Shown here piece by piece: positions 21,380 to 33,610 of a DNA stretch of 64,000 nt (within the stretch, counting starts at the first letter, position 1; each line of letters opens with the position of its first letter). Source of the DNA: Thiotrichaceae bacterium (GTDB lineage Bacteria > Pseudomonadota > Gammaproteobacteria > Beggiatoales > Beggiatoaceae). The position numbers were made by a program, and so were the translations under genes. The DNA lies in assembly GCA_016745055.1 (NCBI GenBank), contig JADGDF010000003.1:1-64000 (forward strand), written 5' to 3'. Under the pieces are notes generated by a model. That model was given only the letters and a program-made list of their open reading frames with translations. It did not search any database and was not told the origin of the DNA.

Positions 21380-22009
21380 ATGATGCAACCTCCATTACCT
21401 CGTACTTTACGTGGTTACCGACATATTAAACGCTATTGGGATCATCACTACCATAGTTATATTGCTAAAATTCTCCCAGGCGAGTTTTATGTAACACGCA
21501 ATGATGAAATCATTACTACCGTTGTGGGGTCTTGCGTTTCTGCGTGTATTCGCGATAAGCTCAACGGTATTGGGGGCATGAATCACTTTATGTTACCAAC
21601 AGATAACATTAGTAGCCAATGGCAACAAACACATGTTAGTGTTGCTAATCGCTATGGTAGTTATGCAATGGAGCATATGATTAACGAAATTTTAAAATAC
21701 GGGGGAGAAAGACAATTTCTAGAAGTCAAGCTCTTTGGTGGTGGCAACATCATGTCAAATATGGGTAATATTGGACAACAAAATATTAATTTTGTAAAAA
21801 ACTATGTACGCTCTGAAGGATTAAATTTACTTGCAGAAGATTTAGGCGATATTTATCCACGAAAAATTCTTTTTTATCCCTTAACTGGACGCGTCAGAGT
21901 CAAGAAATTACGTGCGATGGAACACTCCATTGCTGCAAGAGAAACTGCTTACAGACGTAGTTTAACTAAAAAATCAACATCCTTTGATGATGATATTGAT
22001 TTGTTTTGA
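21380..22009 (+). CDS. cheD: chemoreceptor glutamine deamidase CheD
   Basis: A 209-residue protein that deamidates glutamines in methyl-accepting receptors. The catalytic Cys/His arrangement is seen in VVGSCVSACIRDK (nucleophile Cys) and GGMNHFMLP (His). The VKLFGGGNIM segment is also typical. It lies between cheR and cheB with gaps of about 125-250 bp, so they need not be one transcript. The N-terminus before residue 25 is longer than in Bacillus CheD, as usual in Proteobacteria. Confidence 0.93.
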   Translation: MMQPPLPRTLRGYRHIKRYWDHHYHSYIAKILPGEFYVTRNDEIITTVVGSCVSACIRDKLNGIGGMNHFMLPTDNISSQWQQTHVSVANRYGSYAMEHMINEILKYGGERQFLEVKLFGGGNIMSNMGNIGQQNINFVKNYVRSEGLNLLAEDLGDIYPRKILFYPLTGRVRVKKLRAMEHSIAARETAYRRSLTKKSTSFDDDIDLF

Positions 22010-22134
22010 TGTCAGGAACTAGGAAAATTATAAAAATTTGCTTCCTGTTTATCAAATTTTTATAGTAAATTCAGTCTTCTGGTGCCAACATTCCAATCTT
22101 TTTAAGTAATAAATATATTACCAACATAACAAAT

Positions 22135-23241
22135 ATGCCAAAAATACGTGTTTTAATTATTGATGATTCTGCATTAATTCGGCAGATGTTGACCAAAATT
22201 TTAAATTCAGCATCAGATATTGAAGTTGTTGGTACTGCTTCAGACCCTTATATCGCTCGCGAAAAAATAAAAAAACTGAATCCCGATGTTCTAACCTTAG
22301 ATGTTGAAATGCCACGTATGGACGGTTTGGCCTTTCTCAGTAATCTAATGCGCTTACACCCTATGCCTGTAGTGATGATTTCAGCGCTTACAGAGAAAGG
22401 GGCTGATGTGACTTTACAAGCTTTAGAATTAGGCGCATTAGACTTTATTTCTAAGCCACAAATTGATGTTGCCCAAACTTTGGAAGGGTATGCAGATGAA
22501 ATTATTAGCAAAATTCAAGTCGCTGCCACAGCTCATGTCAAACCGTTAAAACAAAGAATTCGCAAAGCTGTTTCTCCTCTCAAAGTTCCTCCAAGATATT
22601 CTGTTGATGAAATTATTGCTGATAAATCCAAGCAACCCCGTCATCCATTTAAAACCACAGATAAAATTATTGCCATCGGCGCTTCAACAGGTGGCACTGA
22701 AGCTATCAAAATATTACTTGAAGATATGCCACCAAATATGCCAGGAATAGTTGTTAGTCAACATATTCCAGCTTCTTTCAGCCGTTCATTTGCCACGCGT
22801 ATGAATCAAATATCTCCAATGACTGTCAATGAAGCTGAAGATGGCAAAGCAATTGTACCAGGACACGTCTATATTGCACCTGGTAGCCACCACCTACTAG
22901 TTGAAAGAGATGGTGCGCGTTATATTTGCCGTTTACATCAAGGAAACCCAGTCAATCGGCATCGTCCATCTGTAGATGTGTTGTTTCGATCTGTGGCACA
23001 AAATGTTGGCACAAATGCAGTGGGTGTGATTTTAACAGGCATGGGGGATGATGGTGCAAGAGGTATGAAAGAAATTAATGAAACAGGCGCAAATACCATT
23101 GCTCAAGATGAACATAGCTGTGTTGTATGGGGAATGCCAGCAGAAGCCATTAAACGAGGTGGCGTTGATTTTATTTTACCCTTACATGATATAACAAATA
23201 AACTAATTTCATTGTGTAATGCACACTATAAGGAAAGATAG
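22135..23241 (+). CDS. cheB: protein-glutamate methylesterase/response regulator CheB
   Basis: A 368-residue two-domain regulator. The receiver domain (1-125) has phospho-acceptor Asp56 ([12 protein letters not shown]). The C-terminal methylesterase (about 172-365) has the Ser184-His210-Asp306 triad ([31 protein letters not shown]). Phosphorylation relieves inhibition, and the enzyme removes methyl and amide groups from receptors. It completes the adaptation trio with cheR and cheD. A MITE-like element lies just downstream. Confidence 0.96.
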
Positions 23242-27635: not shown

Positions 27636-30600
27636 TTAACTCATTCGACTCAACTGGGTAGGGCAACTAATGCGATAAACTTGCTGCGGTTGGGCTTTAC
27701 CTTTTAGCATGACAGGATCGAGTGCTTCGAGTTTTTCAGATGATTTACTCATGTCAAAAGCTTCTATCATTGCTTGCGATAAAATAATTTCTCCGCGTTT
27801 TGCTAAGCTGACTAAACGAGATGCGACATTTACCGTATCTCCAATGACCGTGTAATTCATATAGTTAGGTGAACCCACGTTGCCCGTAATAATTTCACCT
27901 TTATTAATGCCAATGCCCAAGCCCACATCTATGCCGTAAGTTTCTCGCCAAGCTGCATCGAGTTGTACAAAATTTTTCTGCATGGTAATTGCTGAATTTA
28001 TGGCACGTTCAGCCGCATCTTCTTGGAAGAAAGGTACACTGAATCCAATCAATAAACAATCACCTGCCATATTGAAAATGGTGCCTTCGTAGTTATAGGC
28101 TGATTCTGTCAACATGGTGAAAAATTCGTTGAGTAACGATACCACATCTTTAGGTTTTAGCATTTCTGACATAGCGGTAAACCCACGTAAGTCCGCAAAT
28201 AAAATGACAGCTTCTTGACGATCTTGTTGATCACCTAAAGCATTTTCCGCATGACCTGGGCGGATTAAAATCTTATCGACAAGTTTGGGGGAAACGTAGC
28301 GTTTAAACATTCCCTTCAAATGCTCATTTTTAGCTTCTTCCAATTGTGCTCGTGCTTGTTGGTAACGCAGTAAAGAACGTACCCGCGCCATCAATTCTTC
28401 CCTGTTAATGGGTTTAGACAAAAATTCATCGGCACCAGCCTGAATACCTTTAATACGGTCTTGCTGGCCTTCTAACGCTGTAATCAATACTACTGGGGTC
28501 AGTACACTGTTTTCATCGCTCTTAATACGTCGACAAACTTCAAAGCCATCCATTCCAGGCATCATGACATCTGATAGTACAATATCGGGTTTTTCTTCAT
28601 AAATCAGTTTTAAAGCATCTTCCCCTTTATTTGCTGTCAAAACTTGATAACCTTCCTCACGTAAATAAGTACTGACCAACAGTGCATCATAAGGTTGATC
28701 GTCCAGTACCAATAATTTCACTTTATCGGGTGATTTTATTTTTGCCACAAACGTAGCTCCTAAGTTGTCTTTGTCCTTTTCTTCCGTATTTGTTTCTGCC
28801 GACAACGTTGGTGAAGGTTTAATAATTTCCGTTGGTGGTTTTTCACCTAGTAATTTATACAATGCAATTACAAACAACTGATACTCTGTTTCCAATTGTT
28901 CAAGTTGTATAGACGTTTCGGCTAATTGCTCTTGTCTAGCTGCTTCTTCTAAATGTGAGCAGATATCAGCCAATGCTGTAGCACCCAGATTTGCACTGCT
29001 TGATTTGAGTGTATGTGCCGCTTCATGTAAGGCAATAGCGTCTTTATCTACAATAGCAACACGCATAGCTTCAACTAATGGGGTCGCATCATTCAAATAC
29101 GTTTGCACTAAATCTCTAGTAATATCCGGGTCATCTTCCCCAACAAGCTCAATAACCATTGCTTTAACTGCAATAATTAAACTGTCAACTTGTTCTTCGC
29201 TAGATATTAAGGGTGTTGATTCAACTTTTTCTTGAATTGTGACTTGAGAATTAGCTTTCTTACTAACGACTTCTTCACCCATCATTTGGGCAATAATTTG
29301 ATTCAAAATTTGACTAAATTGATGGTATTCAGCCAGCGCATGTTGTACCGGTTGTGCAACACCTGTCATATCTTGTTTACGCCCATGAACTTCTAATATT
29401 TTACATACATCAGCCAATTGTTGAGCGCCTAAACTGGCACTGCTTGACTTTAAACTGTGCGCTGCCCGTTCTAGCATGTCTGGATCACTTACTTCTACTG
29501 CATTTTCTAAACTATGTGCTAACTCAGCACTACCTTCTAAATAAGTTTGTACTAGTTCCACTACTATTTCAGGCATGTCTCCTGCTAATTCTTGTAAAGC
29601 AGCTTGAATTTGCGCGAGTGATATCTCTCTATTTGTGATTACAAAATCATTTGTTGGTGCAGATTCAATAGGCGTAGATATCGTTTCCTTGGTTGTCTCA
29701 ATGCTCTCTCCATTTAACGCTTTCTGTAATGCTTGGGTAACCTGTTGATACTCAGCTAAAGTGTGTTGAACTTTACCATCAACTTCTGTCATGTCGCCTT
29801 CGCGACCTTGTTTTTCAAGCACTTTGCATAAATTAGCTAATTGAGTTGCGCCTAAACTGGCACTACTTGATTTCAAGCTATGAGCAGCCCCTTCCAATTT
29901 TCTAGAATCATTTTCTTGAACAGCGGCTTGTAAATTATCCGTGAGATCAACGCTTGCATCCAAATAAGTACTGACAAGTTCTTCGGCTAACTCAGGTAAA
30001 TCGCCTACCAATTCTTGTAGTGCAGCCTGAACTTGTGGTAATAAGGTTGGCATGGGCGTTATGTTGTTGGGCAATTTGATAACGACGTCTTCGTTTGCAG
30101 CAATCGAAGTATCAACAATTTCAACTTCTTTGTTAAGAATTTTCTGCAATGCTTGACTAACTTGTTGATATTCATCAAGCACTGCTTGAACCAATATAGG
30201 CACATCGGTCATATCTGCTGCACGACCCTGTTTTTCAAGCTGTTTGCACATATCTGCTAATCGAATGGCCCCTAAGCTAGCACTACTGGATTTCAAGCTA
30301 TGTGCTGCTTGTTCTAGTTGTGTAGGATCATTATTTTCAACTGCAAGTTTTAAACTATTTGTTAGTGTCGTGCTATCGTCTAAATACGTGGTAATTAACT
30401 CTTCAGCAATGTCAGGCATATCACTGCCAACAAGGGTATAAAGCGCTGTTTGAGCTTGTTGTAATAATTCAGTAAGGGGTGTAGGTTGAAAATCTTTACT
30501 GGTACGAACAGTTTGCTCTTCAGTCTGAACTTCTTCATCAGAGGTAGTCACTTCAACAACAGGCATAACCATCTCAGCGGGTTGTACTGTCGCTTGCACT

Positions 30601-33005
30601 GCTATTTCATCATCTCTGGTCGTATCTATCCGTTGATTACGACGTGGACATCTCAATAAAGCGGTGGCTAGTTCCTCAGGACGAATGGGTTTGGTCACGT
30701 AATCTTCCATTCCTGCGTCAATACATTTTTCGCGATAGCCTCTTAAAGCATGGGCAGTCATAGCTACAATGTAAGGTCGTTCTGCATCATCAGGCCAATG
30801 TTGACGAATAAAGTGGGTCGCTTCAAATCCGTCCATTTCTGGCATTTGTACATCCATTAACACAACGTCATAAGGCTTTCGATCAACAGCATCAACGGAT
30901 TCTCTCCCGTTAGATGCAATATCGACTTGTTGATACCCCATGCGTCTGAGAATTAAAGTCGCTACTTTTTGATTGGTCTGATTGTCTTCAGTCAGTAAAA
31001 TACGCAGTGGATTTTTTTGCGCTAAACTACCTTCAGATGAGACATGCAATTGTTCCTTATTAGCTCTATTAACATTTGGTTTATATTCACGCTGCGAAAA
31101 AACCTCAATTAAACAGTCAAATAATAAAGACGCTTTAACTGGTTTGGTTAAGTAAGCAGAAAAAAGACCCATGCCAATGTCGGTTTGTTGCCGACCTAAT
31201 GATGTCAGCATGACAATGGGTAGTTGGTCAATGGAATAATTTTTACGAATTTCTTTTGCCAAACTAACGCCATCCATTGTCGGCATTTGCATATCTAAAA
31301 TTGCTAGGTTACATTCATCAAGATCGCCTAATTTTGTCAGTGCTTCTTTACCCGATAACGCTTCTTCTGAGTGCATTCCCCAGGATTGAAGCTGTAGGTT
31401 TAAAATGCGTAAATTGGTATGATTATCATCAACAATTAAAACTTTCTTCCCTTGCAAATCTGTAGGTGTTTTAACGTTTTCTAAAGTTTGTTCAACCGCC
31501 GCTTCAGCAATCACTGTAAAGTGGAAAGTTGAGCCTGTATTTTCCTCACTTTCCACCCACATATGCCCGCCCATTAGCTCACATAAATGTTTGCTAATGG
31601 CAAGTCCTAAGCCTGTACCTCCATAACGTCTAGTCATTGAAGCATCAACCTGACTAAAAGACTGAAATAAACGATCAATACGATCAGATCGAATACCAAT
31701 GCCTGTATCTTTTACTGCAAAATAAACTTCAATTTGATTATTAGCAAGTAAATGGGAGGAAACCATGACAACAATTTCACCTTTTTCGGTGAATTTGACA
31801 GCATTGCTCAACAAATTAACCAATATTTGGCGTATTCGAGTGACATCACCTGCGACATGAGAAGGGACTTGTTTATCAAAATAGGCAGCGAGTTCTAAAC
31901 ATTTCTCGGCAGAACGAGAGGCAATTAAATCAAGCGCAGCTTCAACACATTCCCGTAGATTAAATGGATGCTGCTCTAAATCCATTTTACCTGCATCAAT
32001 TTTTGAGAAATCTAAAATATCATTGATAATTGATAGTAATGAATCACCACTGACCCGCACAGTGTCAACATAATCTAATTGTTCTGTTGTGAGTTTTGTA
32101 TCTAGCAGTAGTCCAGTCATGCCAATGACTGCATTCATAGGGGTACGAATTTCATGGCTCATATTAGCTAAAAATTCACTTTTTGCTTGGTTAGCCACTT
32201 CAGCAGCTTCTTTTGCTTTTTGCAAATCGTCAACAGTTTCTTCCAGCTCTGATGTACGTAACTTAACCTGTTCTTCTAATTGGTTACGGTGGTGAGCCAA
32301 AATCTCATCCCGATTTTGAATTTGCTGTAACATCTGGTTAAAACCATCCACCAACATACCCAATTCATCTTCATTGTGTTTTTCAGCCCGAATTTTATAG
32401 TCATTTTTGCGAGTAATGGCCTGGGCAGTATCTACTAAATGTAAAATCGGTCTGGAAACAACCGCTTGCAATTTTGCCGTTAGCATCAACGCCAACATAG
32501 AGGAAACGACCAAAATAGCCAGCATAATATAAGTATATTCTGTAATAAGCTGATTAATTTTCCCTAAATCGGATTGAATGAAAATTGTCCCAATTTTGCG
32601 ATCAGGGAAGATAATGTCTTCAAAAAGATCAAGAGATTGAGATGTGAATTTAGCACTACGGTCTTGGGCGGGTAATGACACAAAATTTTTTTTATCATTG
32701 CGAGTATATCGCGCAAAAACATCGCCATATTCATCGTAAATGATAGCTACTGTGATGTGCTTTTCAACATCTAAGGTAGCTAGTGTTTTTTCAGCAGAAT
32801 TAGCATCAATAAAAAGTAGAGAGGCCGCAATGTTTGCACCAATTACCTTGGCAAGTACTTCATGATCTCGAATCATGGCACTTCGCAGACTAGAAACTTC
32901 GTTGGCAGCAAAAAAGCCTGAAGCAGCAATAAGTGACACAATATTAATAAACATTGTAATCGTGATCAGTTTATATTTTATAGACAGATTAGCAAAAGCT
33001 TTCAT
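27636..33005 (-). CDS. CHASE8-HAMP-kinase-REC-REC-4xHpt-REC-nucleotide cyclase
   Basis: A 1789-residue inner-membrane phosphorelay protein. Its order is: membrane segment 13-33; a periplasmic CHASE8-like domain to about 158; membrane segment 159-178; HAMP; HisKA with His284 (MSHEIRTPM); ATPase ([10 protein letters not shown] near 463-472); receiver 1 (Asp571); and receiver 2 (Asp718). Four Hpt domains follow with phospho-histidines 902, 1042, 1183 and 1331, each in AAH(S/T)LKSSSA(S/N)LGA. Last come receiver 3 (Asp1479) and a class III cyclase at about 1590-1780 (metal Asp1605 and Asp1649, transition-state Asn1726 and Arg1730). The usual purine-specifying Lys is Asn1645, so ATP or GTP use is open. 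A YfiR-like gene lies directly upstream. Confidence 0.9.
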
Positions 33006-33052
33006 GATAGTATTTCTGCGTTCCGTTTGCGATGAAGTATATGCAAAGTTTG

Positions 33053-33610
33053 TTACCGTTTAACAATTTTAGCTAATTTAAGTAAATTTGCACTCGCTTT
33101 AAGATCCGCTTTTCTTATTGCATTGGGATTCATAGCTAAACGTACCTTATTGCTAATCTTAAAAAAATTGACCATACCGCCAAGCGGAATAAAATTGTCC
33201 ACATCACTGACTGTTAACATTGGATATTTTTTGGTCAAGCGCAAAATTTGAATGACTTGGGCTTGTTGGTTGTTGCTAATATAAAGAATATGACAGGTAT
33301 GAATTTGGGAAGCACGATCCAAATAGTGGAGCTTGATGGGGTGTTTACCTGCTTTTTGGTTTTCAGTCGTAACTTTGAGAAAAGCACCAAAAGGATTCTT
33401 ACCAAATACGCATAAATTAAATGGTGAAGTATCATTTTCAAATGCAGACTCAGGCCAATAAATAAAATTCACAAAATTATATAAAAATACTGATTTAATT
33501 TGATATTCACTTGCTGACGGTGAGCCGGCATAACAAGGAAAGGTTATTAAAGCATACAAGCTGAATATCAGCATATTTAGCTTATAAGGTAACACATTGA
33601 TATTTAACAT
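33053..33610 (-). CDS. YfiR-family periplasmic regulator (DUF4154)
   Basis: A 185-residue protein with a hydrophobic leader ending about FPCYA (residue 27) and then the YfiR fold: [30 protein letters not shown], and the C-terminal GGMVNFF...[14 protein letters not shown]. Cys67 and Cys106 could form the disulphide seen in this family. In Pseudomonas, YfiR binds the periplasmic domain of the CHASE8-type diguanylate cyclase YfiN and holds it off. Here the next gene (47 bp downstream) encodes a CHASE8-type kinase/cyclase, so the same kind of control is likely. Met13 is an alternative start. Confidence 0.85.

Follow-up and report, generated by a model that had tools for sequence, protein, structure and literature searches.

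The window, which is the whole stretch of DNA analysed here (64,000 nucleotides), comprises bases 1–64000 of a 73-kb contig from a 4.65-Mb genome with a completeness score of 100%. Relatives were drawn from 43 Beggiatoaceae genomes, the sole family representing its order. Two genes on the minus strand were examined. The first is a yfiR-like gene (33053–33610) encoding a 185-aa protein with a signal-like N-terminus followed by a DUF4154 domain (33068–33505). The second, on the same strand, encodes a 1789-aa protein (27636–33005) and is separated from the first by 47 bp between the yfiR stop and the kinase start (33006–33052). The initial annotation had placed a yfiR-family gene, a 47-bp gap, and a CHASE8/HAMP gene at this locus, and its coordinates and strand were exact.

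The 1789-aa protein, all of whose domains lie on the minus strand, begins with a CHASE8 periplasmic sensor domain (residues 43–143; 32577–32879) that carries the stretch AASLLF and is bracketed by hydrophobic helices at residues ~13–31 and ~159–177. This is followed by HAMP (residues 183–230; 32316–32459), HisKA with the phosphoacceptor His284 (residues 274–339; 31989–32186), and HATPase_c (residues 386–498; 31512–31850). Two receivers come next, REC1 with Asp571 (residues 514–635; 31101–31466) and REC2 with Asp718 (approximately residues 668–780; 30666–31004). The Hpt array consists of Hpt1 (residues 869–952; 30150–30401), with the motif AAHSLKSSS, and of Hpt2 (approximately residues 1009–1092; 29730–29981), Hpt3 (approximately 1150–1233; 29307–29558), and Hpt4 (approximately 1298–1381; 28863–29114), the limits of these three being inferred from the motif. 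Hpt4, the divergent last copy, reads AAHTLKSSS. A third receiver, REC3 with Asp1479 (residues 1432–1543; 28377–28712), and a class III nucleotide cyclase domain (residues 1594–1774; 27684–28226) complete the chain. The domains were assigned with Pfam, and the HisKA, receiver, and Hpt assignments also drew on alignments.

The Pfam scores were 51.6 bits for CHASE8 (cut-off 27), 38 for HAMP (cut-off 25), 81.5 for HisKA, 98.7 for HATPase, and 84.6 for Guanylate_cyc (cut-off 21.9); Response_reg matched in three stretches and Hpt in four, every domain scoring above its curated cut-off. The proposed layout, in which the input module is joined to a histidine kinase, a multi-step relay, and a class III cyclase, is real and its phosphosites are conserved. 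The initial annotation had also staked its reading on the periplasmic domain being CHASE8, and the profile match bears this out.

The product of the yfiR-like gene matched Pfam DUF4154 at 143 bits (cut-off 24.9) and NCBIfam YfiR_like_TOL0243 at 136 (cut-off 125), and it scored 40 bits with NCBIfam sequest_YfiR, below the cut-off of 85. In the alignment, it has the first two of the four cysteines of Pseudomonas aeruginosa YfiR and lacks the other pair. A profile built from 48 YfiR neighbours matched the solved P. aeruginosa YfiR structures (E 4e-13); phmmer searches of the PDB with a single YfiR or CHASE8 sequence gave no match, and a CHASE8 profile gave matches to DcuS only, which were insignificant. 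Judged by its sequence, the product of the yfiR-like gene is a YfiR-like family member of the TOL_0243 type, not a YfiR orthologue.

How widespread is this arrangement? A profile of the cyclase domain retrieved orthologues at 362–388 bits from 18 of the 43 Beggiatoaceae genomes; no other match within the family exceeded 158 bits. The fused form was found in 16 of these 18, in frames of 1472–1895 aa; the other two, G003 and G004, encode CHASE8-HK-REC-REC-Hpt3 in one gene and the REC-cyclase in the next. When the CHASE8-kinase portions were placed in a tree, all cyclase-fused proteins formed a single group (support 100/100), within which the split members and those lacking the cyclase were nested. 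The simplest reading is that the fusion arose once in the Beggiatoaceae, was later split, and lost its cyclase at least twice (G016; G029). Among the matches listed for 365 other sampled Gammaproteobacteria, the sole comparable cyclase domain scored 260 bits and belongs to a standalone frame of 399 aa (G315); none of those listed lay in a frame longer than 1000 aa.

Furthermore, we observed that the phosphorelay residues are under tight conservation. All 20 aligned proteins have His284, Asp571, and Asp718, and all four Hpt domains of the window protein have an intact AAH[ST]LKSSS motif. We propose that the pair probably forms a YfiR-gated system, in which a transmembrane hybrid kinase acts through its own phosphorelay on the class III nucleotide cyclase built into the same chain. 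Periplasmic YfiR would bind CHASE8 at the AASLLF stretch and hold the receptor in one state, and redox or envelope stress would remove or inactivate YfiR, upon which the HAMP/HisKA dimer would switch. Phosphate would pass from His284 through REC1/REC2 and one or more Hpt domains to Asp1479 of REC3; phospho-REC3 would then bring two cyclase domains together as an active dimer, and the dimer would produce a cyclic nucleotide. A point against this reading is the number of Hpt domains, two to six per protein among relatives, where a linear relay would need fewer.

Could the kinase instead signal mainly in trans, with separate response regulators receiving phosphate from the Hpt array and the cyclase as a secondary or phosphate-independent output? 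The number of Hpt domains varies from two to six, and the duplication is lineage-specific: Hpts 1–3 of the window protein are mutually closer (60–64% identity) than they are to the last Hpt, and Hpts 1–4 of G029 are recent duplicates, in a short alignment with many forks unresolved. The lineages G016 and G029 keep the kinase and the Hpts after loss of the cyclase, and at seven loci the gene is followed by one for a second hybrid kinase. Signalling in trans nevertheless appears unlikely to be the main route, as all 16 fused members have a REC3 with an intact Asp interposed between Hpts and cyclase, and as the REC stays with the cyclase in the adjacent gene of the split members.

The YfiR-gated reading further depends on the pairing of the two genes. 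In 15 of the 18 genomes with an orthologous cyclase, a same-strand yfiR immediately precedes the kinase gene, with a gap of −26 to +90 bp, so the adjacency is not due to chance; the conservation of this neighbour across relatives, the other point on which the earlier reading hung, was thus borne out. The AAVVF stretch of the YfiN periplasmic domain is the mapped YfiR-binding site according to Malone et al. 2012 (PMC3375315), and we take AASLLF as its counterpart, placed by eye in an alignment without P. aeruginosa YfiN. An aromatic residue at the last position of this motif was found in 51 of 51 CHASE8 proteins with yfiR and in 12 of 21 without it (Fisher p 3.5e-6, relatedness uncorrected), where yfiR was counted as adjacent if within 400 bp, it was scored with a home-made profile, and some of the loci without yfiR stop near contig ends. 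In addition, the YfiR and CHASE8 distances correlate (r 0.72 for all, 0.74 within Beggiatoaceae paralogues, and 0.81 within the relay clade; 0 of 5000 permutations each). Such a correlation is expected of partners and equally of genes inherited together, and shared ancestry contributes to it.

On the other hand, the yfiR pairing might be a neighbourhood relic, with CHASE8 sensing a ligand of its own. An adjacent yfiR is absent at 3 of the 18 cyclase orthologues; G018 has a kinase-cyclase without one. No DUF4154 gene was found anywhere in the Thioploca-type genomes G040 (one contig) and G041; some members therefore do without YfiR. Both genomes have lost the aromatic motif residue. The CHASE8 model (pLDDT 91.5) has a PAS-like fold near the sensor domains of LapD, WalK, and the ligand-binding CitA. 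Set against the motif retention, the conserved adjacency, and the co-varying distances, a relic is very improbable.

The output domain of the YfiR-gated kinase has the class III cyclase catalytic set of two metal Asp, Asn, and Arg. The adenine-selecting Lys of CyaB (GTIDKFVGD), however, is Asn in 18 of 18 orthologues (GTIFNMAGD), and the Thr partner of this substrate Lys is retained in the window cyclase. With Asn where adenylyl cyclases have the Lys of the Lys-Asp/Thr pair and where Cya2 (2w01) has Glu, the window cyclase has the selecting residue of neither the adenylyl cyclases nor the guanylyl cyclases of the Cya2 type. Because the substrate-selecting Lys is Asn, the activity and the product are uncertain, and the cyclic nucleotide cannot be named from the sequence; the cAMP or cGMP of the initial annotation are candidates alongside other nucleotides. 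Among 83 homologous cyclase stretches, of which 82 come from other records and one from the window, Lys-Thr is found in 73; it is missing from the window cyclase, from its standalone REC-cyclase sisters in Steroidobacteraceae and relatives (His, Ser, Asn), and from one stretch with Glu. The AlphaFold model of the cyclase matches CyaB (3r5g), CyaC (1wc1), and Cya2; one of five models was confident, with a mean pLDDT of 84.6 versus 57–66.

That the domain is catalytically dead, or a nucleotide-binding regulatory domain, as the loss of the canonical Lys in all 18 orthologues and in the sister standalone REC-cyclases might suggest, deserves little credence given that both metal Asp and the transition-state Asn and Arg are invariant in 18 of 18 and that the mean column identity of 73% across genera indicates strong constraint. 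The window genome has 19 class III cyclase domains and 8 cNMP-binding domains, and cyclic-nucleotide signalling as such is therefore plausible in this host.

The closest cyclase domains outside the Beggiatoaceae are those of gammaproteobacterial standalone REC-class III cyclases (L114–L120, L222), in which His, Ser, or Asn likewise replaces the substrate Lys; those of L114–L120 are 46–50% identical to that of the window. Unlike the window domain, they are free-standing proteins of ~270–500 aa, and no CHASE8 kinase or YfiR gene was found near them in the stretches examined. This subfamily is a possible source of the output domain.

Does the same input serve other outputs? The proposal that a kinase-phosphorelay-cyclase stands here instead of a diguanylate cyclase held for the window protein, which has no GGDEF domain, but not for the cell, as the same genome keeps a canonical yfiR beside a CHASE8-HAMP-GGDEF-EAL gene (L015:5825–8464; G000:C356). 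Most of its other DUF4154 genes adjoin genes without CHASE8 (L009–L014). Other Gammaproteobacteria have CHASE8-HK-REC-REC-Hpt-REC-GGDEF-EAL proteins of 1624–1664 aa (L192–L194; two of the three receivers are visible in L192) or split versions with a REC-GGDEF-EAL gene next door (L202, L207). An adjacent yfiR is present in L193, L202, and L207, and none was seen at L192 and L194. These proteins have the same input and relay order as the window protein but a c-di-GMP output; therefore, the input module feeds different second messengers across lineages. Direct descent of the window protein from them by a swap of the output is unsupported, since they form a separate clade in the CHASE8-kinase tree. 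A bolder version is conceivable, although we regard it as doubtful: the Beggiatoaceae YfiR-CHASE8 module may, through the phosphorelay, drive a distinct REC-linked class III cyclase subfamily (Asn/His/Ser-Thr, not Lys-Thr) whose nucleotide selectivity is non-canonical, and a single cell would then respond to YfiR-type signals with two second messengers.

The known system nearest in its input is YfiBNR (TpbB) of P. aeruginosa, with which (PMC3375315) the locus shares a periplasmic YfiR beside a CHASE8/PAS-HAMP membrane receptor with a hydrophobic YfiR-binding motif. The window protein has the CHASE8-HAMP of the YfiN diguanylate cyclases and lacks their GGDEF; its output is instead a kinase-phosphorelay-class III cyclase, the locus has no YfiB gene, and the window YfiR has one of the two Cys pairs. 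Malone et al. 2012 (PMC3375315) described YfiN homologues in which GGDEF is replaced by GGDEF-EAL, Hpt, sensor kinase, or MCP domains, and put forward a modular core of YfiR and PAS/HAMP. YfiR-associated histidine kinases, known from there and from NCBIfam (NF053592/NF053591), likewise have YfiR beside a CHASE8-HAMP-HK, but the window protein adds the relay and a class III cyclase in one chain, and no class III cyclase is mentioned in the available text of PMC3375315. NCBIfam has models for both the YfiR-like protein and its kinase. With HK_near_YfiR_like (NF053592, cut-off 194), the window kinase scored 190.9 by hmmscan and 197.2 in a whole-genome search, and its orthologues scored up to 226.9.

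CyaC of Spirulina (Arthrospira) platensis and Anabaena shares the class III cyclase fold (match to 1wc1), and the CyaC-type combination of kinase and REC in one chain with the cyclase is present in the window protein. We know of no YfiR/CHASE8 input and no Hpt array in CyaC, and its substrate residues are canonical, unlike those of the window cyclase. The activation of CyaC by autophosphorylation and phosphotransfer is stated in the title of Kasahara and Ohmori 1999 (reference list of PMC1183210). The suggestion that the combination was undescribed therefore stands in part. In our literature search, which reached few subscription journals, nothing described a YfiR-CHASE8 module with a class III cyclase at its end, but YfiR beside histidine kinases was reported in 2012 and is modelled in NCBIfam, and the cyanobacterial CyaC is a known case of a phosphorelay acting on a class III cyclase.

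If the YfiR-gated reading is true, a periplasmic repressor module well studied in biofilm c-di-GMP signalling would have a different nucleotide messenger under its control as well, through a complete phosphorelay within one polypeptide. The GGDEF-EAL and cyclase paralogues in one genome, the Thioploca-type losses of YfiR, and the split genes would offer direct tests of sensor-output coupling, and the cyclase subfamily without the Lys a testable case of nucleotide substrate selectivity.

Several further observations concern the neighbourhoods. At nine sister loci (L048, L050, L051, L053, L054, L055, L057, L062, and L063; e.g., L054:2503–3144), the gene directly upstream of yfiR, or of the kinase if yfiR has been lost, encodes a DUF4398-type lipoprotein with a PTQEMSDARQA motif, which is a candidate outer-membrane counterpart of YfiB there. 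Such a role at the window locus was dropped, as neither the gene nor a remnant occurs in the window; the single DUF4398-type copy of this genome is on another contig (G000:C355). The sister kinase of G029 (L053:2245–7251) has six Hpt domains and no REC3, cyclase, or adjacent yfiR. Other Beggiatoaceae CHASE8-kinases (L072:487–4544, L075:1189–4556, and L076:3476–6810) adjoin separate REC-cyclase genes of different, Lys-bearing subfamilies. In L072, a divergent yfiR lies beside the kinase and the REC-cyclase gene, and this is a second, independent YfiR/CHASE8-to-cyclase set-up. Finally, CheD-like and CheB-like genes lie at 21380–23241 of the window, and a similar pair just upstream of yfiR in L052 (377–2133) suggests loose local synteny.
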